The notes under the pieces: generated by a model
Database searches by the model: none
What the model saw: only the letters and a program-made list of their open reading frames with translations
Told to the model about the DNA's origin: nothing
Program-made: the position numbers and the translations under genes
In this document: positions 1 to 27,064 of the stretch, one piece after another
Layout of the letters: the number at the start of each line of letters is the position of its first letter
How positions within the stretch are numbered: position 1 is the first letter of the stretch
NCBI GenBank assembly: GCA_012837345.1
Contig: DURL01000035.1
Coordinates: forward strand, 1-32,909
From: Bacteroidales bacterium
GTDB taxonomy: Bacteria; Bacteroidota; Bacteroidia; Bacteroidales; Dysgonomonadaceae
Length of the DNA: 32,909 nt
Direction of reading: 5' to 3'

Positions 1-440
1 ACCAGGATCACATCCACATCGGCGGGCGGCACGATGCCGGTACGCTCCTTGTAGGTGATGCCGAAGCCGTGGGAGAAGTAGAGCGCCTTGCCGGGCGTCA
101 GGTGCTTCTTCACCGTCGGCCAGAGCGCGATCTGTGCCGCATCGGAGAGCAGGTACTGAATCACGGTGCCCTTCTCACAGGCCTCCTCAATTTCGAAGAG
201 CGTCTCGCCCGGCACCCAGCCGTCGGCCACCGCCTTGTCCCACGATTTGCTGTTCTTCCGCTGCCCCACGATCACGTTGAATCCGTTGTCACGCAGGTTG
301 AGCGACTGCCCCGGGCCCTGCACGCCATAACCGATCACAGCGATCGTCTCATCTTTCATCACCTCCTGAGCCTTGCTCAACGGAAACTCATCGCGGGTCA
401 CCACATTCTCTTCGACTCCGCCAAAATTCATTTTTGCCAT
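1..440 (-). CDS. ilvC: ketol-acid reductoisomerase, N-terminal part (cut by window edge)
   Basis: Converts acetolactate or acetohydroxybutyrate to the dihydroxy acid with NADPH, the second common step of valine and isoleucine synthesis in the cytoplasm. The 146 visible codons start MAKMNFGGVEENVVTRDEF and carry the Rossmann nucleotide-binding motif GYGVQGPGQ near residue 40, followed by the NLRDNGFNVIVGQR strand and the SHGFGITY segment. This N-terminus is typical of Bacteroidota IlvC. The gene continues beyond position 1, so the metal-binding knotted domain is not visible. It is the last visible gene of the BCAA operon and lies 245 bp downstream of ilvN; that gap holds tandem repeats and no clear TAnnTTTG promoter, so co-transcription is likely but not proven. 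Confidence 0.97.
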   Translation of the reverse strand, partial: MAKMNFGGVEENVVTRDEFPLSKAQEVMKDETIAVIGYGVQGPGQSLNLRDNGFNVIVGQRKNSKSWDKAVADGWVPGETLFEIEEACEKGTVIQYLLSDAAQIALWPTVKKHLTPGKALYFSHGFGITYKERTGIVPPADVDVIL

Positions 441-581
441 ATTTTAATCTGATCTTTATGCCTCACCGGCAATCTTCTTTGACAAGAATCCCCGATTTGG
501 CGAATTAATATTTTATATATTTTCTTTCATTTGATTCCTGGTTCTCTGTTCCTACATCCCGATCCCTGAACTACAATCGTT

Positions 582-680
582 GAACCAAGAACCAAGAACG
601 ATAAACTAAGAACTATGAACCATAAACAAATCAACCTACTAACCTACTAACCTACTAACCTACTAACTTACCAACTTATA
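582..680. repeat. intergenic tandem repeats, period 7 then period 8
   Basis: Positions 582-623 hold six heptamers of the form GAAC(C/T)A(A/T), with two diverged copies. Positions 633-680 hold six octamers, four of them identical AACCTACT followed by AACTTACC and AACTTATA. The array ends 5 nt from the ilvN stop codon, on its 3' side. The rest of the 441-685 gap is AT-rich and shows no clear promoter or gene. Confidence 0.9.
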
Positions 681-685
681 ATCTT

Positions 686-1240
686 TCAACGATTCTGATT
701 GTCCTGTTCCCTCTTCGTCAGCATATCGCTGAGCCGTTCCACCCTCGATTTGGTGATGGCGATACGGCCAGAGCGGACGAACTGCAACACGCCAATAGTG
801 TCGGCCAGTTCGTCGAAGAGTCCCTGCGTCTCCTCGTAATGTCCCGCCTTGAGGAACACCACGCAGTCGTTCGACACCTCCAGGATCCGCACGTTGTACT
901 TGCGCACCAGATACTCGATGGAGCCATGCTCCAGCACCTTCTCGGTGGAGAGCTTATAGAGCGCCAGCTCCTGGTGCACCAGGTCCTCGTTGGTATTGTA
1001 ATAAGCCTTTAGGATATCCACCCGCTTGTCGATCAGGGGGATTAGCTTCTTGATCACCTCCTCGTTGTCGGAAAAAGTGGTGATGGTGAACTTGTGAATC
1101 CCCTTGATGGCCGAGGGTGAGACCGACAGCGTCTCGATGTTGAGTTGCCGCCGGGTGAAGATGGTGGTGATCTGGTTGAGCACCCCTACCGTGTTCTCAG
1201 AGAAGACGGTGATGGTATATAATGTCCTGTTTTCGCTCAT
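686..1240 (-). CDS. ilvN: acetolactate synthase, small regulatory subunit
   Basis: Regulatory partner of IlvB; family members bind valine and other BCAA for feedback control and raise the activity of the catalytic subunit. The 184-residue product opens with an ACT domain (about residues 5-80: TLYTITVFSENTVGVLNQITTIFTRR region, then the NIETLSVSPS strand) and ends with the usual acetolactate synthase small-subunit C-terminal domain (about 85-170, including VRSGRIAITK). Length is normal for the family. The ATG start is supported by the match of the first residues to the ACT fold. It sits 88 bp behind ilvB, and a heptamer repeat array fills part of that gap. Confidence 0.96.
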   Translation of the reverse strand: MSENRTLYTITVFSENTVGVLNQITTIFTRRQLNIETLSVSPSAIKGIHKFTITTFSDNEEVIKKLIPLIDKRVDILKAYYNTNEDLVHQELALYKLSTEKVLEHGSIEYLVRKYNVRILEVSNDCVVFLKAGHYEETQGLFDELADTIGVLQFVRSGRIAITKSRVERLSDMLTKREQDNQNR

Positions 1241-1298
1241 CTTATTGTTTTATAAAAGTAATTCAAAAACCCTGTTTCTCACATCATACCTGCCTACT

Positions 1299-1328
1299 GC
1301 TGATAGCTGAAAGCTAATAGCTAATAGC
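1299..1328. repeat. heptamer array abutting the ilvB stop
   Basis: Four to five heptamers of the AGCT(G/A)A(T/A) type on the plus strand. On the transcribed strand they read as AGCTATT / AGCTTTC / AGCTATC units that begin immediately after the ilvB TAA. Same family as the arrays behind cimA, leuC, leuA, nqrF and infA. Confidence 0.85.
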
Positions 1329-3080
1329 TTACAAAGTATACCCATTCCCCAGCATAATATTGGTGACACAACCACCGGAGGGAACCATGGGGTAGACCAT
1401 TCCCTTGGTCTCCACCACCACCTCCAACAGATAGGCTCCCTTGTGGGCCAGCATCTCTCCAATGGCTCCGTTCAGCTCTTCCCGCTCAGTCACCTTGCGC
1501 CCCCTGATGTTGTAGGCATCGGCGATCTTGATGAAATCGGGATTCTTGAGGTGCGTCTCCGAGTAGCGTTCGTCGAAGAAGAGCTCCTGCCACTGGCGCA
1601 CCATGCCCAGGTAGTTGTTGTTCAGCAGGATGATCTTCACATCCACCCCATACTCGAGAATAGTACCGAACTCCTGGATGGTCATCTGCAGGCCGCCGTC
1701 ACCCACGAAGATGCAGACGGTGCGATCCGGTGCGCCGTACTTGGCACCGATGCCGGCAGGCAGGCCGAAGCCCATGGTGCCCAGACCGCCCGAGGTAACC
1801 AGGCTACGCGGTTGGGTGTACTTGAAGTAACGGGTGCTCATCATCTGATGTTGTCCCACGTCGGTCACACAGATGGCGTTGTTATGCGTTGCCTCCGTCA
1901 CCTTGTTCACCACCTCGCCCATCTTGATGGGTCCCTTTTCGGGAAAGAGCTCGTTGCGAATTACAGTATCAAACTCCTTCTTTTCGAAGGGCTTGAATTC
2001 CGCCAGCCACTCACCATGAGAGCCCTTTTGCAGGTATTCCGTCACTTTGGGCAGGGTCTGCTTCACGTCGCCCACCACCTTCACAGTTGTCGGTACGTTC
2101 TTGTTGATCTCTGCCGGGTCGATGTCGAAGTGGATCACCTTCGCCTGTTTGGCATAGGTCTTCAGATCGCCCGTCACACGGTCGTCGAACCGCATCCCGA
2201 TGGCGATCAGCACGTCGCACTCATTGGTCTTCAGGTTGGGCGCCACGTTACCGTGCATGCCCAGCATGCCGCAGTTGAGCGGATGATCGGTGGGGACTGC
2301 CGAGAGACCCAGGATGGTCGATGCGAAGGGTACGTCAGCTTTCTCCAGGAAGGCAACCAACTCCTTTTCGGCATGCCCGAGGAGCACCCCCTGGCCCACC
2401 AGCACGTAGGGCTTCCGGGCATTGTTGATCAGCTCCGCAGCCTTCCGTATCTGCACCTCATCCATATCGGGTACCGGCTGATAGCTCCTCAGGAAGGATG
2501 TTTTTTGATAGTCGAAGATGCATTTGTTCACCTGTGTATCCTTGGCGATGTCGAGCACCACCGGTCCGGGGCGACCGCTCGCGGCGATGTGGAACGCGCG
2601 CGACACCGCCCAGGCGATATCCTCCACGCGGCGGATCTGGTAGGCCCACTTGGTGATGGGCTGGGTGATGCCAATCACGTCAGCCTCCTGGAAGGCATCT
2701 GATCCCAGCAGGCTGGAGATCACCTGTCCCGAGATCACCACCAGCGGGGTGCTGTCCATCATCGCATCGGTGATTCCGGTGATGGCATTGGTGGCACCGG
2801 GGCCCGAGGTGACCAGTGCCACCCCTACCTTGTCCGATACACGGGCGTAACCCTGTGCCGCGTGCACCGCCCCCTGCTCATGGCGCACCAGGATATGTTT
2901 AATTTCATCTTTATGGTCATACAGCGCATCGAACACGGGCATGATCGCCCCGCCCGGATAACCGAAGATCGTCTCTACCCCTTCCGCCAGCAGTGAGCGG
3001 ATCAGGATCTCACTCCCCGTGACAGGTTGCTTCTCCGAAGTGGGGGAAACGATGACTGGTGATTGATTGACTCTGTTCAT
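1329..3080 (-). CDS. ilvB: acetolactate synthase, large catalytic subunit
   Basis: Thiamine-diphosphate enzyme that condenses two pyruvates to acetolactate (valine/leucine) or pyruvate with 2-ketobutyrate (isoleucine). The 583 residues show the three expected domains: an N-terminal TPP pyrimidine domain with GYPGGAIMPVFDALY near 40 and the catalytic Glu68 in RHEQGAVHAAQGYAR; a central FAD-type domain; and a C-terminal TPP pyrophosphate domain with GDGG...LNNNYLGMVRQWQ near 438-480. About 20 extra residues precede the conserved start of the family, so a slightly shorter N-terminus is possible. It lies between ilvD (41 bp upstream) and its regulatory subunit ilvN downstream. Confidence 0.97.
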   Translation of the reverse strand: MNRVNQSPVIVSPTSEKQPVTGSEILIRSLLAEGVETIFGYPGGAIMPVFDALYDHKDEIKHILVRHEQGAVHAAQGYARVSDKVGVALVTSGPGATNAITGITDAMMDSTPLVVISGQVISSLLGSDAFQEADVIGITQPITKWAYQIRRVEDIAWAVSRAFHIAASGRPGPVVLDIAKDTQVNKCIFDYQKTSFLRSYQPVPDMDEVQIRKAAELINNARKPYVLVGQGVLLGHAEKELVAFLEKADVPFASTILGLSAVPTDHPLNCGMLGMHGNVAPNLKTNECDVLIAIGMRFDDRVTGDLKTYAKQAKVIHFDIDPAEINKNVPTTVKVVGDVKQTLPKVTEYLQKGSHGEWLAEFKPFEKKEFDTVIRNELFPEKGPIKMGEVVNKVTEATHNNAICVTDVGQHQMMSTRYFKYTQPRSLVTSGGLGTMGFGLPAGIGAKYGAPDRTVCIFVGDGGLQMTIQEFGTILEYGVDVKIILLNNNYLGMVRQWQELFFDERYSETHLKNPDFIKIADAYNIRGRKVTEREELNGAIGEMLAHKGAYLLEVVVETKGMVYPMVPSGGCVTNIMLGNGYTL

Positions 3081-3121
3081 AGAACCTAAACTTTATATGT
3101 TGATACTTATAACCTTTAACC

Positions 3122-4981
3122 TTATACGATTCTGACCGCGCCCTTATCGGCAGAGGTGACAAATGCTGCGTAGCTTCGCAACGCTTTCGACACGGTACGA
3201 TCCCTGTTTGGCGTAAAGGCATCTGCTCCCCTGGCCTCTTCACTGCGACGACGCTCGGCCAGCTCCTCGTCGCTGATCATCACGTTGATGCTACGCGCCG
3301 GGATATCGATCTCGATGAGATCACCCTCCCGTACCAGTCCGATGTTGCCACCGGCTGCCGCCTCGGGTGAGATATGGCCGATAGAGAGTCCCGAGGTACC
3401 CCCCGAGAATCGTCCGTCGGTGATCAGGGCACACTCCTCACCCAATTTCTTCGATTTGATGTAGGAGGTGGGATAGAGCATCTCCTGCATCCCGGGACCG
3501 CCCTTGGGACCCTCGTATATGATCACCACCACGTGGCCGGCAGTGACGTCGCCGCGCAGGATCCCCTTCACCGCATCATCCTGCGAATGGAATACCTTTG
3601 CCCGGCCGCTGAACCTCCAGATGCTCTCCTTCACCCCCGCGGTCTTCACCACGCAGCCGTCGGCGGCGATGTTGCCCCGCAGGATGGCCAGCCCCCCATC
3701 TTTGGTGTAGGCGTTTGCCACGCTGCGGATGCATCCCCCCTCACGGTCGCTGTCCAGCTCCCTGAAGCGTGCATCCTGCGATCCCATCACCAGGTTGCGT
3801 CGGTTACCCGGCGCCGAGGAGTAGATGCGCAGCGCTTCCGCATCGGGTGCTGCTTTTGTGATGTCATACTGGTTGATAGCCTCGGCCAGCGTCATGCCAT
3901 CGGCACGGCTCACGCTGGTCTCCAGCAGTCCCGCTTTGGCCAGCTCACCCAGGATACCCATGATGCCTCCGGCGCGGTTCACATCCTGGATGTGATACTT
4001 ATCGGAGTTGGGCGCCACCTTGCAGATGCAGGGCACCCTATGTGAGAGCGTCTCGATGTCGTCGAGCGTGAAGTCGATCTCTCCCTCCTGTGCGATGGCC
4101 AGGGTGTGGAGGATGGTATTGGTCGATCCCCCCATGGCGATATCGAGCGTCATGGCGTTCAGGAACGACTCGCGGCAGGCGATGTTGCGGGGCAGCACGC
4201 TCTCATCACCGTCGAAATAGTACCTGTAGGCATTCTCCACGATTTGACGGGCCGCATCCAGGAAGAGCTGCTTCCTGTTCACGTGGGTCGCCAGCACCGT
4301 GCCGTTGCCCGGCAGTGCCAGTCCGATCGCCTCGTTGAGGCAGTTCATCGAGTTGGCGGTGAACATGCCGGAGCAGGAACCACAGGTGGGGCAGGCCAGC
4401 TCTTCCAGCTTTGATATCCGCTCGTCAGGGATGTTCTCGTCCGCCGACTCGATCATGGCGTCGATCAGGTCGATCTGCTGGTCGCCGATCTTTCCCGCCT
4501 CCATCGGTCCCCCTGAGACGAAGATGGTAGGTATGTTGAGCCGCATGGCGGCCATCAGCATCCCCGGCGTGATCTTGTCGCAGTTGCTGATGCATACCAG
4601 GGCGTCCGCCTTGTGGGCGTTCACCATATACTCCACCGAGTCGGCAATCAGGTCGCGCGACGGCAGCGAGTAGAGCATGCCGTCATGTCCCATGGCGATG
4701 CCGTCGTCCACGGCGATGGTGTTGAACTCGGCCGCGAAGCAGCCCAGCTTTTCGATCTCCTGCTTCACCAGCTGGCCGATGTCGTGCAGATGCACATGTC
4801 CCGGAACAAACTGGGTGAATGAGTTGGCGATGGCAATGATCGGCTTGCCCATCTGGCTGCGGGTCATCCCGTTAGCATGCCAGAGCGCCCGCGCACCGGC
4901 CATCAAACGTCCCTGCGTGCTGGTCGCGCTGCGCAGGTGATCCTTCTTTCCACCCTCTACTGTATGATTGTTGTTGCTCAT
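3122..4981 (-). CDS. ilvD: dihydroxy-acid dehydratase
   Basis: Iron-sulfur enzyme that dehydrates the dihydroxy acids to 2-ketoisovalerate and 2-keto-3-methylvalerate. The 619-residue sequence follows the E. coli IlvD pattern closely: [13 protein letters not shown] near 53-65 (no cysteine here), [12 protein letters not shown] with Cys134, [18 protein letters not shown] with Cys203, and the [14 protein letters not shown] block near the C-terminus. The E. coli-type cysteine set suggests an oxygen-labile [4Fe-4S] cluster, which suits an anaerobe (inference). Start ATG precedes MSNNNH. It is separated from leuB by a 251-bp spacer made almost wholly of tandem repeats. Confidence 0.97.
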
Positions 4982-4989
4982 TTTTATGC

Positions 4990-5085
4990 GTTGATACGTT
5001 AGTATGTTGATACGTTAGTATGTTGATACGTTAGTAAGTTGATACGTTAATAAGTTGGTAAGTTTGTTAGTTGTCACGTTATTAA
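4990..5085. repeat. tandem array of GTT-initial octamers (16-bp higher-order unit)
   Basis: Twelve consecutive 8-mers beginning with GTT. The first eight alternate GTTGATAC with GTTAGTAT, GTTAGTAA or GTTAATAA, giving four 16-bp units at 4990-5053; the remainder are diverged. Positions 5130-5153 hold three AAC-initial octamers (AACATAAT twice, then AACTTAAT) that are the same word in inverted orientation. GTTATTAAG at 5078-5086 is a perfect complement of CTTAATAAC at 5148-5156. The array starts 9 nt upstream of the ilvD ATG. Confidence 0.9.
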
Positions 5086-5159
5086 GATGTCAGTTGATCC
5101 TGTTTGCTGTTTGGCATTATAAACCCATAAACATAATAACATAATAACTTAATAACCTT

Positions 5160-5243
5160 GAACTATGAACCTTGAACTATGAACTATGAACCATGAACCA
5201 TGAACCATGAACCATGAACTATGAACTATGAACTATGAACTAT
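5160..5243. repeat. 12-copy heptamer array running into the leuB 3' end
   Basis: Twelve uninterrupted 7-mers on the plus strand: GAACTAT, GAACCTT, two GAACTAT, four GAACCAT, four GAACTAT, then a decayed GAACCAA at 5244-5250. The array overlaps the last codons of leuB: on the coding strand GTTCATAGTTCATAG encodes Val-His-Ser-Ser-stop. The repeat therefore supplies the end of the protein. Confidence 0.93.
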
Positions 5244-6306
5244 GAACCAAATATTCCCTGATCCATTCCCCCACTTCACTGGTGCTGTAAGCCTTGCCGC
5301 CGTCGGCAATATCCTCGGTCACGATGCCCGCCTCCATGCTGGCGTTCACCGCCTCACGGATCATCGCACCCTCCTCCATCAGTTCGAAACCATACTCGAA
5401 CATCAGCGCGACCGAGAGGATCATCGCCAGCGGGTTGGCAATGTTCTTCCCCGCAGCCTGCGGATAGGATCCGTGTATCGGTTCGAAGAGCGAGGTGTGG
5501 ATCCCCATCGATGCAGAGGGGAGCAGTCCCAGCGACCCTGTGATCACCGAAGCCTCGTCGGTGAGGATGTCGCCGAACAGGTTCTCCGTCACCAGCACAT
5601 CGAAGCTCTTCGGCCACTGGATGATGCGCATGGCGGCATTGTCCACGAAGAGGAAGTCGGTTTCGATGTCGGGGTACTGAGGCGCGATCTCCTGTGCGAT
5701 CTGGCGCCAGAGACGGGAGGTGGCAATCACGTTGGCCTTGTCCACTACCGTCAGCTTCTTGCGTCGCTGACCGGCGAACTTGTAAGCCAGGTGGAGGATT
5801 CGTTCCACCTCCTCGCGGGTGTAGATGCAGGTGTCGTAGGCGGTGTTGCCATCCTCACTGCGTCCCTGCGGCTGTCCGAAGTACATACCGCCGGTCAGCT
5901 CGCGGATGCAGACAAAATCGGCACCCTCCACCAGATCCGCCCGCAGGGGTGACTTGTGGATCAGCGAGGGAAAGGTCATCACGGGACGGATGTTGCCATA
6001 GAGGCCCAGCTGCTTGCGCATGCGGAGCAGACCCTGTTCGGGACGTACTTTCGCATTGGGGTCGTTGTCATACTTCGGGTCGCCGATGGCACCGAAGAGC
6101 ACCGCATCGCTCTCCATGCAGAGGTTGTGTGTCGCCTCCGGGTAGGGGTCGCCCGTGGCATCGATGCCACAGGCGCCCACGATCCCCTCTTTCAGCGAGA
6201 GCGTGTGTCCCTTCTTCGCACATACGGCTTTGGTCACCGCCAACGCCTGCTCCATGATCTCCGGGCCTATTCCGTCACCCGCCAGTACTGCTATCTTCAA
6301 CTCCAT
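5233..6306 (-). CDS. leuB: 3-isopropylmalate dehydrogenase
   Basis: NAD-dependent oxidative decarboxylation of 3-isopropylmalate to 2-ketoisocaproate in leucine synthesis. The same enzyme normally handles the methylmalate intermediate of the citramalate pathway. The 357 residues have the family marks: GDGIGPEI at 10-17, the substrate arginines in [21 protein letters not shown] near 93-113, and metal ligands in FVDNAAMRI and [16 protein letters not shown]. Start ATG gives [16 protein letters not shown]. The C-terminal four residues, VHSS, and the stop are encoded by the heptamer repeat at 5160-5243, so the exact C-terminus was probably set by repeat expansion. Next upstream gene is cimA. Confidence 0.97.
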
Positions 6307-6381
6307 ATTTTTGATTCTATTCTCTATAATTGTTCACTAAAAAAAACTTTTCTCCTGGACCAACCCGTCTTCCACCTTCAA

Positions 6382-6409
6382 AGCTGAAAGCTGATTGCTG
6401 ACAGCTGAC
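6382..6409. repeat. heptamer array behind cimA
   Basis: Four heptamers, reading AGCTGAA, AGCTGAT, TGCTGAC, AGCTGAC on the plus strand, lie 5 nt beyond the cimA stop. The junction to the stop reads GACCGCTTC on the plus strand, a short motif also found behind leuC and the NIF3-like gene. The rest of the 6307-6414 gap shows no other feature. Confidence 0.87.
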
Positions 6410-6414
6410 CGCTT

Positions 6415-7983
6415 CTATGGCAACTGCAAATAATTCATGTTTGGTATGTTCCCGCTCTCAATCATGTTCAGCATCTTCAAGGTCGCCTTGATGGCCGCCA
6501 CCGTCTGGTCGATGTCCAGGGCACGGGTCTTGAACACTTTGCCGTCGAACTTCCAGGTGATGATGGTCTGTACGTATGCGTTGGTCTTGCCACCGGGCGG
6601 GATCACCACCTCGTAGTCGATCAGTTCCGGTGTCTCCTTGTTCAGTCGCCGGTATATCTTGTACATCGCCTTGGAGAAAGCGTGGTACTGACCGTCTCCT
6701 GCAGCCGTCTCCTGGTAGATCTCTCCCTTGATGCTGAGCTTCACCGTGGCGGTGGGACGCAGTCCGTCGGTCAGAGCGAGCGAGTAGTTCAGCATCTGAA
6801 TATCCTTGTTGTCGAGACCGTTTTTGAGCACATCGGAGACGATGTAGGGCAGCTCGTCCAGGTTCACAATCTCCTTCTTGTCGCCCAGCTCGATGATGCG
6901 GGCGGTCACCTTGCGTGTCGACTCGTCATCCAGTTCGATGCCCAGTGCCTCGAGGTTCTTGATGATGTTCGACTTTCCGGCGTTCTTGCCCAGGGCATAC
7001 TCGCGGAAGCGGCCGAAGCGCTCCGGCATCAGGTCGTTGTAGTATAGGTTTTTCTTCTTGTCGCCATCGGCATGCACTCCGGCCACCTGCGTGAAGACAT
7101 TGTCGCCGATGATGGGTCTGTTTTTGGGGATCCGCACGCCCGAATAGGTCTCCACCACCTTGCTTACGTTGTAGAGGTGCGACTCATCGATACCGGTCTC
7201 CAGTTCCATGTGGTCGTGAATCAGCGCCACCACACTGGTAAGCGGTGCGTTGCCGGCACGCTCACCCAGACCGTTCACCGTCACATGCACCCCCTTGACA
7301 CCAGCCTTGAGGGCATTGTAGACGTTGGCTACCGCCAGGTCGTAGTCGTTGTGCGCGTGAAAGTCGAAGTGCAGCGACGGATAGCGTTCTATCATCTCAC
7401 TGCAGAACTGATACGCCTCGTCGGGATTAAGCACTCCGAGCGTGTCGGGCAGCATGAAGCGGGTCACCGGCTCATCTTTCAACCCGTCCATCATCCGAAA
7501 GACATACTCCTTCGAGTCGCGCATCCCGTTGGACCAGTCCTCCAGGTAGAGATTCACCCTCATCCCTTTCTCTTTTGCCAGGGTGATGGTTTTCTTCACA
7601 TCGGCCAGGTGCTCCTCCACCGTCTTGCGCAGCTGCCAGGTGCAGTGCTTGAGCGAACCCTTGCAGAGCAGGTTCACCACGCGGCAGCCGGCATCAGCGA
7701 TCCACTCGAGCGAGGTGCCACCATCCACGAAGCCGAGCACCTCCAGTCGGTCCAGGTAGCAGTGGGCGGCAGCCCACTGCGCCATCTTCTGCACCGAGCG
7801 GAACTCGCCCTCCGAGACGCGGGCCGATGCGATCTCTACGCGATCCACCTTCAGCTCTTCCAGCAGGAGGCTTACAATGCTCACCTTCTCCTGGGCTGCA
7901 AAGGATACACCGGAGGTCTGCTCCCCGTCGCGGAGCGTGGTATCCATGATCTCTATTCTTCTCTTCTCTGCCACCGCTTTCAT
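6415..7983 (-). CDS. cimA: (R)-citramalate synthase
   Basis: Condenses pyruvate with acetyl-CoA to citramalate, the first step of the threonine-independent isoleucine route. The 522-residue protein has a LeuA/HMGL-type TIM barrel (about 8-280) and a C-terminal LeuA-type regulatory domain (about 395-515). By recall it aligns over its length with the characterised Leptospira interrogans citramalate synthase. Catalytic residues Arg18, Asp19 and Glu148 and metal ligands His209/His211 (HAHND) are present. The three residues reported to give the Leptospira enzyme its pyruvate preference (Leu81, Leu104, Tyr144) correspond to Leu83, Leu106 and Tyr146 here, all conserved. A second, ordinary LeuA is encoded upstream, so this paralogue is not the isopropylmalate synthase. 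Databases may label it 2-isopropylmalate synthase. It is 11 bp from leuD. Confidence 0.9.
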   Translation of the reverse strand: MKAVAEKRRIEIMDTTLRDGEQTSGVSFAAQEKVSIVSLLLEELKVDRVEIASARVSEGEFRSVQKMAQWAAAHCYLDRLEVLGFVDGGTSLEWIADAGCRVVNLLCKGSLKHCTWQLRKTVEEHLADVKKTITLAKEKGMRVNLYLEDWSNGMRDSKEYVFRMMDGLKDEPVTRFMLPDTLGVLNPDEAYQFCSEMIERYPSLHFDFHAHNDYDLAVANVYNALKAGVKGVHVTVNGLGERAGNAPLTSVVALIHDHMELETGIDESHLYNVSKVVETYSGVRIPKNRPIIGDNVFTQVAGVHADGDKKKNLYYNDLMPERFGRFREYALGKNAGKSNIIKNLEALGIELDDESTRKVTARIIELGDKKEIVNLDELPYIVSDVLKNGLDNKDIQMLNYSLALTDGLRPTATVKLSIKGEIYQETAAGDGQYHAFSKAMYKIYRRLNKETPELIDYEVVIPPGGKTNAYVQTIITWKFDGKVFKTRALDIDQTVAAIKATLKMLNMIESGNIPNMNYLQLP

Positions 7984-7994
7984 CTCACTTGTGA

Positions 7995-8591
7995 TTAATA
8001 GGCGTAAGGGCGTCGCTGTTCATACGCCTCAATCTTGTCTCTGTTGGATAGGAGGAAATCGATGTCATCAAGCCCCTTGAGCAGGCACTCCTTCTTGTAG
8101 CTGTTGATCTCGAACTGCTCGTTCTCCCCCGTGGCGTTGTTGGTGATGGTCTGTTCTTCCAGGTTGACCGTGACGCTGCTCTTCGGATCGGCTTTCACTG
8201 CATTGAAGAGACCGCGCAGGAAGGCTTCGCTCACCACCACCGGCAGGATGCCGTTGTTGAGGGCGTTGTTGCGGAAGATGTCGGCGAAGAAGCTCGACAC
8301 CACCACCCTGAAGCCGTAGCCTCCGATGGCCCAGGCAGCATGCTCGCGGCTGCTACCACTGCCGAAGTTCTTCCCTGCCACCAGCACCTCACCACTGTAG
8401 GTGGGGTCGTTCAGCACGAAGTCGGTCTTGGGGTTGCCCTCCTTGTCGTAGCGCCAGTCGGCGAAGAGGTTGTCGCCAAAGCCATCGCGCGTCGTGGCCT
8501 TCAGGAAGCGTGCAGGTATGATCTGGTCGGTGTCCACATTCTCAATCGGAAGTGGCACATATGTCGATGTGATTGTCTGAAATTTCTCCAT
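7995..8591 (-). CDS. leuD: isopropylmalate isomerase, small subunit
   Basis: Small subunit of the aconitase-like isomerase that interconverts 2- and 3-isopropylmalate; with CimA present it should also isomerise citramalate. The 198 residues show the swivel-domain signatures [14 protein letters not shown] near 19-32 and [24 protein letters not shown] near 77-100, followed by [17 protein letters not shown]. Length is typical. It is sandwiched between leuC (54 bp upstream) and cimA (11 bp downstream), so the three are surely co-transcribed. Confidence 0.97.
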
Positions 8592-8617
8592 TGTCTTGCT
8601 GATTATTATTGTCTTTT

Positions 8618-8639
8618 AGCTGATAACTGATAACTGACC
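8618..8639. repeat. heptamer array behind leuC
   Basis: Three heptamers, AGCTGAT-AACTGAT-AACTGAC on the plus strand, followed by CGCTTTC and the leuC stop. On the transcribed strand this is stop, GAAAGCGGTCAG, then repeats: the same layout as behind cimA. Confidence 0.83.
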
Positions 8640-8645
8640 GCTTTC

Positions 8646-10028
8646 TTATGGCTGCGTGATTCTCCCGTTCACCGCCGCCGCGGCTGCCACCAGCGGTCCC
8701 GCCAGGATCGTCCGTGCACCGGGACCCTGTCGTCCCTCGAAGTTACGGTTCGAGGTGGAGACAGCGTACTTGCCGGCGGGCACCTTGTCGTCGTTCATCG
8801 CCAGGCAGGCGGAGCAGCCGGGCTGCCGCAGGGCGAAGCCGGCCTCCTCCAGGATCCTGTCCAATCCCTCTGCCTCTATCTGCTTGCGTACCTGCCAGCT
8901 GCCGGGTACCAGCCAGGCGGTGACGTTGTCCGCCTTCTTCCTGCCTTTCACGTAGCCCGCGAAGACGCGGAAGTCCTCAATGCGGCCGTTGGTGCAGCTG
9001 CCCAGGAAGACATAATCGATCTGCTTCCCTTCCAGCTTCTCACCCGGCTCGAAGCCCATGTAGCGGAGCGACTTCTCAAAGGAGATCTGTCCCGCCTCAT
9101 CTATCTCGTCGAGCGTGGGGATGGTGCCGTCGATCGGCATCCCCATGCCGGGGTTGGTGCCGTAGGTGATCATCGGCTTGATCTGTGACACGTCGAAGGT
9201 CACCTCCTTGTCGAACGCTGCCCCCTCATCGCTGTGCAGCGTCTGCCAGTAGGCCATCGCCTCCTCCCAGCGCTCACCCTTGGGTGCGAACTCGCGGCCG
9301 CGGATGTAGTTGAAGGTGGTCTCATCGGGTGCCACCAGACCGCCGCGGGCACCCATCTCGATGCTCAGGTTACAGAGCGTCATCCGTTCCTCCATGGTGA
9401 GGTTGCGTACCGCCTCACCGGCATACTCCACAAAGTAACCGGTAGCGCCGCCGGTGGTGAGCTGCGCAATCATGTAGAGCGCCATATCCTTGGCGCTGAC
9501 ATGCTCGTTCAGCTTCCCCTCGAAGTTGATCCGCATGGTCTTGGGGCGTGTCTGCAGAATACACTGCGAGGCCAGCACCATCTCCACCTCGCTGGTGCCG
9601 ATACCGAAGGCGATCGCCCCGAAGGCACCGTGTGTGGAGGTGTGGCTGTCGCCACAGACGATGGTCATCCCCGGCTGTGTGTAACCGTTCTCGGGACCGA
9701 TCACGTGGACGATGCCATTCTTCGGGTTGTTGAGACCGTAGTAGGTGAGCTTGTAGTCACGGGCGTTCTTCGCCAGCGTGTCTACCTGAAAGCGCGAGAT
9801 CTGGTCGCGGATGGGCTGATCCTGCCCCATGGTGGGGATGTTGTGGTCCGCCGTGAGCGTGGTCTGCTCAGGGCGGTAGACGCTCAATCCCCTGTTGCGG
9901 AGGCCGGCGAATGCCTGTGGACTGGTTACCTCGTGACAGAGATGTCTGTCGATGTATAATTGTGTGGGACCGTCCTGCACGGTGGTCACCACGTGCGCAT
10001 CCCAGATTTTATCGAAAAGAGTCTTCAT
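8646..10028 (-). CDS. leuC: isopropylmalate isomerase, large subunit
   Basis: Catalytic [4Fe-4S] subunit that works with LeuD. The 460-residue sequence begins [14 protein letters not shown] and contains the aconitase-family blocks [27 protein letters not shown] near 115-140 and [10 protein letters not shown]. The cluster cysteines are seen in [12 protein letters not shown] near 345 and in [10 protein letters not shown] near 405. Length matches the bacterial family (about 460-470). It follows leuA by 78 bp, and that gap is made of octamer/heptamer repeats. Confidence 0.97.
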
Positions 10029-10034
10029 TTATGT

Positions 10035-10102
10035 TGATTTGATGATTTGATGATTAGCTGATTTGATGATTAGCTGATAGCTGATAGCTGATAGCTGACT
10101 GC
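10035..10102. repeat. mixed octamer-heptamer array behind leuA
   Basis: Five octamers (TGATTTGA, TGATTTGA, TGATTAGC, TGATTTGA, TGATTAGC at 10035-10074) pass without a break into four heptamers (TGATAGC three times, then TGACTGC at 10075-10102). The leuA stop begins 5 nt further on. The change of period inside one continuous array shows that the 7-bp and 8-bp families are related. Confidence 0.9.
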
Positions 10103-10106
10103 TATT

Positions 10107-11591
10107 TTACCCAAACTTATTCACCGCGTCAATGAACGCCTCCACCGAGGCAGCCACGATATCGGTGTTGGCCGCGAAGCCGTAGTATAGGTTGCCATTG
10201 TGTTCCACCTGCATGTGCACCTTGCCGATGTCATCACTGCCATGGTCAATGGCCTGGATCAGGAACTCCTGGATCTTTATTTTTCTTTTGATGATGTTCT
10301 TCACCGCACGGATGGCCGCATCCACGGGACCGTTGCCGCTGGCGGTGGCTTCGAAGCGCTCGCCGGAGATGTTGAGGCAGAGGCTCGCCACATCGCGCAC
10401 GCCGATGCCACAGATCACCTGCAGGTACTCTACCTTGATGCGGTGCAGACGTGCCTCCCTGCCTACCAGCATCAGGACATCGTCGTCGTTCACGTTCTTC
10501 TTCTTGTCCGCCAGCTCGAGGAACTGCTGGTACACCTTGTCCAATTCCTCCGTCTCCAGCTTCACACCCAGCAGGTTGAGACGGTTCTTCAGGGCAGCAC
10601 GACCGCTGCGGGCGGTCAGCACGATCGCGTTGTCGTCGATGCCCACATCCTTGGGGTTAATGATCTCGTAGGTCTCCACATTCTTCAGCACCCCGTCCTG
10701 GTGGATACCGGAAGAGTGGGCAAAGGCATTGCGCCCTACGATCGCCTTGTTGGGCTGCACCGGCATATTCATCAGGCTGGAGACCATGCGGCTCGTGGAG
10801 TAGATGTGCTGTGTGTTGATATTGGTGTCGAAGCCGCGATCCTTATGACTCTTGAGTGCCATCACCACCTCTTCGAGCGAGGTGTTGCCGGCCCGCTCGC
10901 CGATGCCGTTGAGGGTCACCTCCACCTGGCGGGCGCCGTTGATCACACCCGAGAGGGTGTTGGCGGTGGCCATGCCCAGGTCCTGGTGGCAGTGGGTGGA
11001 GAGAATTGCCTCCTTCATATCCACGTTGTTGACAAGGTAGTTGATCTTGGCACCATACTCATCGGGGAAGCAGTAGCCGGTGGTGTCGGGTATATTCACC
11101 ACCGTGGCACCGGCGTTCACCACCGCCTGCACCACGCGGGCCAGGTACTCATTGTCGGTGCGTCCCGCATCCTCGGCATAGAACTCCACATCATCCACGA
11201 AACGGCGGGCATATTTCACCGCTTTCACTGCCCGTTCAATGATCTCCTCGCGGTTCGAGTTGAACTTATACTTGATATGGCTGTCGGAGGTACCGATGCC
11301 GGTGTGAATCCTCTTCCGCTTGGCATACTTGAGCGACTCGGCAGCCACCTCGATATCCTTCTCCACGGCACGGGTCAGGGCACAGATGGTGGGCCAGGTC
11401 ACCGCCTTCGATATCTCCACCACCGAATTGAAATCGCCGGGACTCGATACCGGGAAGCCGGCTTCAATCACATCCACCCCCAGCAGCTCCAGCGCCTGTG
11501 CAATCTGTATCTTCTCAATGGTGTTCAGCTGGCAGCCGGGAACCTGTTCCCCATCTCTCAGAGTGGTGTCAAAAACAAAAATGCGTTCCAT
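10107..11591 (-). CDS. leuA: 2-isopropylmalate synthase
   Basis: Commits 2-ketoisovalerate and acetyl-CoA to leucine. The 494-residue product starts [19 protein letters not shown], with the catalytic Arg-Asp at the barrel start, the [12 protein letters not shown] metal-binding segment, the [12 protein letters not shown] block, and a C-terminal leucine-sensing regulatory domain (about 370-494). An in-frame ATG at 11615 would add MTKQQEKI. I prefer 11591 because it matches the usual family N-terminus, has an AGGA-type ribosome binding site 8-9 nt upstream, and lies clear of the terminator U-tract that ends only 5 nt before the 11615 codon. It is the first structural gene of the operon and sits directly under the attenuator. 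Confidence 0.95.
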
Positions 11592-11620
11592 TATTTTTTC
11601 CTGTTGTTTGGTCATAACCT

Positions 11621-11652
11621 AAAAAAAACCTTTCTCACCGGGTGAGAAAGGT
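11621..11652 (-). terminator. attenuator terminator ahead of leuA
   Basis: On the minus strand, an 11-bp perfect stem (arms ACCTTTCTCAC and GTGAGAAAGGT, 3-nt loop) is followed by an uninterrupted run of eight U (positions 11628-11621; the first belongs to the stem-end A/T region). This is a textbook intrinsic terminator placed between promoter and first structural gene. Its 5' arm contains UCUCACCC (plus-strand 11640-11647), which can instead pair with GGGUGAGA over the leader-peptide stop codon (11698-11705). Confidence 0.93.
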
Positions 11653-11697
11653 CATCTTATTCTTTTATCTGCGTCAGTATACGATATGATATGCCAG

Positions 11698-11705
11698 TCT
11701 CACCC
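11698..11705 (-). promoter_or_regulatory. antiterminator segment overlapping the leader stop codon
   Basis: The transcript reads GGGUGAGA here, perfectly complementary to UCUCACCC in the 5' arm of the terminator at 11628-11652 (8 bp; two further G-C pairs are possible beyond a 2x2 internal loop). It contains the leader-peptide UGA. A ribosome reaching the stop would mask it and let the terminator fold. A ribosome stalled on Ile/Leu/Val codons would leave it free to block the terminator. The mechanism is inferred from the sequence. Confidence 0.8.
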
Positions 11706-11762
11706 TCTGAATTCTTCCAGAAGTAGAATAGAAATGACTAGAATATCAATATTGCGGATCAT
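11700..11762 (-). CDS. BCAA operon leader peptide
   Basis: A 20-codon reading frame encoding MIRNIDILVISILLLEEFRG, ending in TGA. Ten of 20 residues are branched-chain: five Ile, four Leu, one Val, mostly clustered at residues 5-15. It lies about 27 nt after the predicted transcription start and 47 nt before the terminator stem. The composition, the position between promoter and terminator, and the overlap of the stop codon with an antiterminator segment together mark it as a control peptide sensing charged Ile-, Leu- and Val-tRNA. No strong Shine-Dalgarno is visible, which is normal for Bacteroidota. Confidence 0.88.
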   Translation of the reverse strand: MIRNIDILVISILLLEEFRG

Positions 11763-11795
11763 ACGACAGTTTCAATATTTCTTGTTTGATGGTTG

Positions 11796-11826
11796 CAAAG
11801 TAAAGCCAAATAAATGAACCGGCAAA
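11796..11826 (-). promoter_or_regulatory. promoter of the leu-ilv operon
   Basis: On the minus strand, a -33 box TTTG (11826-11823) is followed after 19 nt by TTACTTTG (11803-11796), which differs from the Bacteroidota -7 consensus TAnnTTTG at one position. Spacing fits the expected 19-21 nt. Transcription should start near 11789. Positions 11827-12002 between this and the pabB start region are AT-rich and show nothing else I can name. Confidence 0.7.
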
Positions 11827-12002
11827 ATATTTCGTAATATTTTTTGCTTTTTTGTTTACACTTCGACAACCATAACCCTGTTTTCCTTTTCATTTAACAC
11901 AATAAACAGCTATAACACTACACAAAATCAATCCATTATACTTCCTCACAACCTTTTAGGCAACAAAGAGGATAAAGGTGGGGAGTTTACTCAAAATTGG
12001 TT

Positions 12003-26981: not shown

Positions 26982-27064
26982 TGTTACAATTTTAAACTTT
27001 ACTGAAGCCTAAACTGTGCAGCCGCGATTACAGAGAAGTTGTGGTGTAATCAAATTCACAGCTC

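Follow-up and report, generated by a model that had tools for sequence, protein, structure and literature searches.

A probable ribosome-mediated attenuator preceding leu-cimA-ilv genes in Bacteroidales

The leu-cimA-ilv genes of a Bacteroidales bacterium are preceded by an RNA element that, on the evidence of its sequence and of its relatives, is very probably a ribosome-mediated transcription attenuator. Comparison of related loci reveals conservation of a leader ORF, of the codon content of this leader, of both alternative helices and of a promoter box. The element is on the minus strand of the window (the whole stretch of DNA analyzed, 32,909 nucleotides), between leuA and the divergent pabB gene, within the 206 nucleotides before leuA (11621..11826). 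Similarity of leuA places the host near Proteiniphilum (95% to a Proteiniphilum sp. bin). The parts of the element are as follows.

11796..11826, minus strand: promoter-like elements (TTTG at 11826-11823, a 19-nucleotide spacer, TTACTTTG at 11803-11796)
11700..11762, minus strand: leader ORF MIRNIDILVISILLLEEFRG (ATG at 11762, stop codon UGA at 11702-11700, 20 codons)
11704..11723, minus strand: 1:2 hairpin over the final Leu codons in the predicted fold of the window (arms 11723-11716 and 11711-11704)
11698..11705, minus strand: segment 2 GGGUGAGA, the antiterminator strand, spanning the leader stop codon
11640..11647, minus strand: segment 3 UCUCACCC, which pairs with segment 2 and consists of loop bases and the half of the terminator 5' arm next to the loop
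11621..11653, minus strand: intrinsic terminator ACCUUUCUCAC/GUGAGAAAGGU (stem 11652-11628, U8 ending at 11621)

Direct reading confirms the original prediction that a promoter, a 20-codon leader, GGGUGAGA over the stop codon and a terminator are packed before leuA, and that GGGUGAGA is perfectly complementary to part of the terminator 5' arm, namely UCUCACCC at 11647-11640. The leader encodes 5 Ile, 4 Leu and 1 Val, and no Trp. As is characteristic of attenuators, a short leader ORF carries a run of codons for the pathway end products, an intrinsic terminator lies between this leader and the first structural gene, and an antiterminator that excludes the terminator is so close to the leader stop that a single ribosome spans the distance. 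The terminator stem comprises 11 base pairs when read directly and 12 pairs in a terminator scan. Eight terminator-like sites occur in positions 1-12000, which is no commoner than chance (shuffle mean 8.6), so the terminator alone proves little and the relatives must decide. The box TTACTTTG has five of the six fixed letters of TAnnTTTG, the consensus of the -7-like box; an automated scan of the window chose the adjoining TTTATTTG, whose score is equal. Among relatives, a box with at least five of the six letters is present in 69/69, versus 609/1380 in the control, and a perfect TAnnTTTG is found upstream in 47/69, versus 94/1380.

The genes downstream, all on the minus strand, were assigned with NCBIfam models.

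10107..11615, minus strand: leuA (2-isopropylmalate synthase), the first gene, with a probable true start at 11591
8646..10028, minus strand: leuC
7995..8591, minus strand: leuD
6415..7983, minus strand: cimA-like gene (best model NF042433, 656 bits, under its cut-off of 950)
5233..6306, minus strand: leuB
3122..4981, minus strand: ilvD
1329..3080, minus strand: ilvB
686..1240, minus strand: ilvN
3..440, minus strand: ilvC, a fragment cut at the window edge and below the models' cut-offs

For leuA, the mechanical ORF call at 11615 probably starts 24 nucleotides too early, and the ATG at 11591 is the likely start, because, by hand count, the tblastn matches to leuA leave out at least the first six residues in 74 of 110 loci and because, in the closely related locus L003, the ATG corresponding to 11615 reaches a stop after four codons. 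The U run therefore ends 30 nucleotides before the likely start. It is plausible that one attenuator controls all nine leu-cimA-ilv genes, since the only other minus-strand terminator-like site in positions 1-12000 is a stem of 5 pairs inside leuC. The gap between leuB and ilvD (window 4982-5233, minus strand) consists largely of short tandem repeats, GTTCATA-like and then CATACTAACGTATCAA-like, and contains no evident leader or terminator that might constitute a separate ilvD attenuator. The sole Rfam match at gathering score in the window is elsewhere, an S4-Bacteroidia ribosomal protein leader (RF03139) at 27019-27051 on the minus strand.

Searches with leuA yielded 110 loci (L001 and L003-L111), which are the best leuA matches rather than a random sample. 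A terminator-arm anchor was found in 96 of these, with no anchor match in 14, and 10 of the 96 were judged spurious; removal of 16 near-duplicates from the remaining 86 left the 70 loci of alignment A1, from which covariance model R1 was built. Matches to the element are present in 97/110 leuA loci, consisting of the 70 model builders and 27 of the 40 others. These 27, all with E values of 1.3e-7 or better, comprise all 16 near-duplicates of model members and 11 of the 24 loci that are not near-duplicates. R1 is unmatched in 13/110 loci (L052, L054, L068, L074, L082, L092, L093, L096, L097, L100, L103, L107 and L110). Named records carrying the element include Bacteroides fragilis (L064 and L065), B. 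xylanisolvens, B. finegoldii, Phocaeicola, Parabacteroides and Dysgonomonas. In searches of phylum and order sets, R1 is found in at least 36 of 296 genomes (E 0.01) and at least 45 of 159 (E 0.001), respectively, counts that are lower bounds under strict filters and include some rows in which the terminator palindrome was matched on the opposite strand. The host's own genome has just one strong R1 match; of two further rows, with E values of 0.115 and 0.284, the latter is the opposite strand of the same terminator.

An ATG-started leader ORF is present in 69/70 A1 loci, the picker having chosen none in L009. Leaders rich in Ile, Leu and Val (at least 7 such residues, making up at least 30% of the peptide) occur in 67/70 loci, versus 235/3500 shuffles run through the same picker. 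Several loci (for example, L004 and L105) were given wrong ORFs by an earlier picker that scored on Ile/Leu/Val fraction, and this ATG-based one took its place. Because the picker by design accepts stops from -20 to +32 of alignment column 99, which is in segment 2, only the peaks and the shuffle control are informative: the stop is at +1 in 26 loci, including the window, and at +14 or +17 in another 26. The RNA strand of segment 2 is thus kept even when it is read in different frames, which suggests that pairing is what is conserved. The peptides vary between clades and retain their richness in Ile, Leu and Val. Comparing leaders of 69 loci against the genes of one locus, CTA accounts for 103/296 Leu codons in leaders versus 2% in the window's operon genes, and ATT for 235/296 Ile codons versus 14%.

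The partner of segment 2 is the half of the terminator 5' arm nearest the loop. Both helices require segment 3, an arrangement that looks like a switch. For the antiterminator (A1 columns 95-104 with 166-175), 85.9% of alignment cells are paired, versus at most 61.2% in slid registers; its covariation score is 0.232 versus at most 0.158, and 43 cells show double changes versus at most 23. The double changes are mainly AU to GC at two positions, with UA to CG in three sequences. Five pairs have a double change, a number reached by 199/500 shuffles and exceeded in two slid registers with 6 each. For the terminator (columns 160-171 with 182-193), 93.7% of cells are paired versus at most 67.3% in slid registers, and covariation is 0.228 versus at most 0.119, in 70 loci that were chosen for having a terminator. 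The covariation score of each helix exceeds that of every slid register and of all 500 shuffles, although, as the tool warns, exceeding shuffles can arise from relatedness. RNAalifold applied to A1 returned the terminator alone and did not find the antiterminator, as can be expected for mutually exclusive helices, and we therefore counted the helices separately.

Predicted energies were computed for the window RNA from segment 2 onward. Before segment 4 is made, the fold with the antiterminator has an energy of -20.5 kcal/mol, comparable to the -18.2 kcal/mol of the fold with the terminator when segment 2 is masked. In 60/70 loci, the predicted fold contains at least 5 pairs in the exact antiterminator register. 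When the letters of segment 2 are shuffled, 877/1400 folds still have at least 5 pairs with segment 3 in any register; this control discriminates weakly, and our argument therefore rests on covariation and not on energy. The original prediction had proposed that stem covariation, the pairing of segment 2 with the terminator arm and leader codon richness be sought in relatives. All three are kept, and the conservation of leader codons, stop-codon strand and covarying alternative pairing supports the ribosome-driven switch that it proposed.

The codon content of the leaders changes with the genes that follow. From 149 rows of R1 matches elsewhere, 75 were chosen by hand, and 48 were used to compare Val content. 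The Val fraction is 0.021 in 24 leaders before leuA versus 0.173 in 24 before ilvD (p = 6e-9), the leaders of both groups having been picked by Ile/Leu/Val score and one ilvD locus, with tandem leaders, having been entered twice. Within the family of the window, we also compared genomes in which leuA and ilvD are joined, meaning within about 10 kb on one contig, to those in which they are separate. Of 55 genomes with a leuA match, 52 were used, three with only a partial leuA being excluded; three of the 52 (G008, G021 and G045) were set aside as ambiguous, leaving 28 joined and 21 separate. Before segment 2, Val flanked by Ile or Leu is present in 28/28 joined genomes versus 0/21 with ilvD elsewhere, where G003, whose leuA sits near a contig end, is placed in the separate group. 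Val anywhere before segment 2 occurs in 28/28 versus 2/21, near the N-terminus in those two. A coarser Val rule, giving 27/27 joined versus 8/21 separate, was replaced, as it mis-picked the ORF of G005 and mostly counted tail Val in the others. The contrast between joined and separate genomes was noticed after the fact and may reflect a single evolutionary event. It is consistent with one leader that would respond to each of the three amino acids where the cluster is joined, and so lends support to the earlier proposal of one leader for Ile, Leu and Val. Among the regions upstream of leuA in this family (L205-L223), a Trp immediately follows the Ile/Leu stretch (IILLW, LIILW) in most leaders from genomes with ilvD elsewhere.

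An alternative pair of helices suits any sensor, and the same pair could in principle respond to a small molecule, an RNA-binding protein or a tRNA, as in T-box RNAs. We regard this as very improbable because conservation extends to the ORF, its codon run and the stop position, which vary in step with the pathway. Moreover, no Rfam family matches the element at gathering score, or at E values up to 1 in L112, the locus of the element. This holds for the covariance models of Leu_leader (RF00512) and of the T-box families, each searched at gathering score in the window and at E up to 1 in L112. The Bacteroid-trp RNA (RF01692), a motif related to an amino acid that the window leader lacks, also has no match in the window.

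It is extremely unlikely that the stem is an ordinary upstream terminator (for example, one ending a small RNA) that happens to adjoin an unrelated short ORF, with the leuA promoter located downstream. The abundance of terminator-like sites, no greater than in shuffles, gives this idea some room, but the competing helix is kept and covaries, the leader ORF and its stop position are kept, leader codons track the pathway, and merely 30 nucleotides separate the U run from the likely leuA start. Equally hard to credit is that leader translation acts through Rho, translational coupling or nascent-peptide arrest and not by exposing segment 2 in a codon-dependent way: 26/69 leaders have their stop 14 or 17 nucleotides past column 99, so that the point of ribosome release differs by clade, but the peptides differ between clades while their Ile/Leu/Val richness is kept, and a covarying intrinsic terminator is present (in 70 loci chosen to have it).

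In the ribosome-mediated attenuation that we favour, RNA polymerase would start near 11790, a position suggested by the promoter-like boxes, and make the leader, and a ribosome would translate the 20-codon peptide. With ample charged Ile-, Leu- and Val-tRNA, the ribosome would reach the UGA codon and cover GGGUGAGA; with segment 2 covered, segment 3 would pair with segment 4, and transcription would end at U8. A shortage of any one of the three amino acids would instead stall the ribosome on the Ile/Leu/Val run. As the last Leu codon is 12 nucleotides before segment 2, a ribosome stalled on this run would leave segment 2 exposed to pair with UCUCACCC ahead of the synthesis of segment 4. The antiterminator would then occupy the half of the terminator stem next to the loop; the terminator could not nucleate, and the leu-cimA-ilv genes would be read. 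The pathway is thus very probably switched on when Ile, Leu or Val is scarce. Ribosome stalling, the change of termination and the control of all nine genes are what we infer from the conserved features, and the proposed mechanism assumes ribosome-polymerase coupling in Bacteroidota.

The original prediction that the ribosome itself masks the competing strand, with no separate anti-antiterminator hairpin, is not borne out in the clade of the window. There, CUUCUGGA (11723-11716) is predicted to fold with UUCAGAGG (11711-11704), and the 5' arm consists of the last Leu codons. This 1:2 hairpin is kept in 27 family members, with 93.5% of cells paired versus at most 68.3% in slid registers and covariation of 0.220 versus at most 0.106; with 4 double-change cells, a number equalled by one slid register, the covariation is nevertheless weak. 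Classical 1:2 hairpins likewise have their 5' arm on pathway codons. The hairpin is within codons, and some of its pairing may be due to coding constraint. In the window's family, it may form when the leader is untranslated or the ribosome is gone. Because it overlaps segment 2 by only two bases, it may act by pausing the polymerase or by weakening the antiterminator without taking its place. A single 1:2 register common to all families was considered and rejected: outside Dysgonomonadaceae-like loci, 177/355 cells are paired, fewer than the 191/355 of a neighbouring register.

Attenuators of enterobacterial leu and ilv operons (Leu_leader, RF00512) consist of a leader ORF in which codons of the pathway's amino acids form a run, including CUA Leu codons, and alternative antiterminator and terminator structures. 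The element described here is similar to them in its pathway-codon leader ORF, CUA Leu codons and alternative helices before the first gene. Unlike them, it has segment 2 on or just behind the stop codon, its one leader precedes a joined leu-cimA-ilv cluster, and it belongs to a different phylum. The abstract of Vitreschak 2004 is said to name attenuators "in some cases" in Bacteroidetes/Chlorobi, which would lower the novelty of our observations.

Published descriptions, cited here from the portions available, provide several points of comparison. Bacteroid-trp RNA is a cis-regulatory motif in Bacteroidetes (PMC2864571) and has been compared to the E. coli trp leader (PMC6414381), but it concerns tryptophan, whereas the element in the window concerns branched-chain amino acids. 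In Flavobacterium psychrophilum, strong clues were reported for leader-peptide attenuation before amino-acid biosynthesis operons, and pheA and hisG are among the genes named as having structured 5' elements (PMC9723704); ilvD and leuA are absent from the main text of that paper, and branched-chain operons, covariation and codon logic are absent from its section on leader peptides. Leader peptides accompanied by a terminator or hairpins precede ilv genes in Corynebacterium (ilvBNC, PMC1262725) and in other actinobacterial cases (ilvB, PMC11857589, PMC10272879), all of which belong to another phylum than the window and are likened here by description. Short ORFs in long 5' UTRs of B. thetaiotaomicron were called "reminiscent of leader peptides" in a text whose accessible portion does not contain the word leuA (PMC7366714). 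Only two Bacteroidaceae regulogs appear in a 2013 survey of RNA regulons (PMC3766115). According to a 2010 survey of attenuators, leader-peptide systems were known only from Proteobacteria and Actinobacteria before its own Firmicutes cases, ermC apart (PMC2965389).

In the literature searched, which covered few subscription papers, a branched-chain attenuator of Bacteroidota, its spread and its codon logic were not found described. To this extent, the earlier claim that such an arrangement had not been described for the phylum stands for branched-chain amino acids, but in its general form it goes too far, with Bacteroid-trp RNA and the F. psychrophilum leader-peptide clues already in print. 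As far as searched, then, the branched-chain attenuator is new to the phylum and conserved in an order where it has seemingly hardly been described, while the mechanism itself is textbook. Bacteroidota are dominant gut bacteria whose amino-acid regulation is little mapped. A conserved branched-chain attenuator offers a ready prediction of when these bacteria make Ile, Leu and Val, a candidate family for RNA libraries, and a place for testing ribosome-polymerase coupling in Bacteroidota.

Leaders of analogous design are found before other amino-acid genes. Ile-rich leaders precede four ilvE genes and one ilvA. Leaders with Thr/Ile runs precede aspartokinase-like genes in three loci; the one gene checked has bifunctional aspartate kinase/homoserine dehydrogenase as its best model, below the cut-off because the locus cuts the gene. 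Trp-run leaders lie before trpE in three loci (two genes checked), in which no Rfam model matches at its cut-off and Bacteroid-trp (RF01692) is absent at E up to 1. A His leader, MIYTTTHHHHSPDE, is found before hisG in one locus. We consider it somewhat more likely than not that leader-peptide attenuation is general for amino-acid synthesis in Bacteroidota. One leu/ilv design, with a GUGAG-type segment 2 and a CUCAC-type segment 3, would have been re-specified by changes in leader codons as operons split, fuse and gain tandem copies, with analogous Ile, Thr, Trp and His leaders alongside, mostly absent from RNA family libraries.

Some of these loci have further features. The Rfam Thr_leader model matches Thr/Ile leaders in L125:1501-1633 (minus strand) and L130:1501-1634 (minus strand) with 38 and 40.6 bits, where the cut-off is 55. 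The trpE leaders have WAWFWF or WWWW runs (L123:1501-1633, minus strand; L128:1501-1634; L181:988-1127). Attenuator-like units also occur in tandem, as two or three consecutive matches to the model, before ilvE in L175:3092-3479 (minus strand), before ilvD or ilvD-like genes in L194:249-544 and L195:637-897 (minus strand), and before weakly ilvN-like genes in L182:880-1131 and L126:1355-1612.
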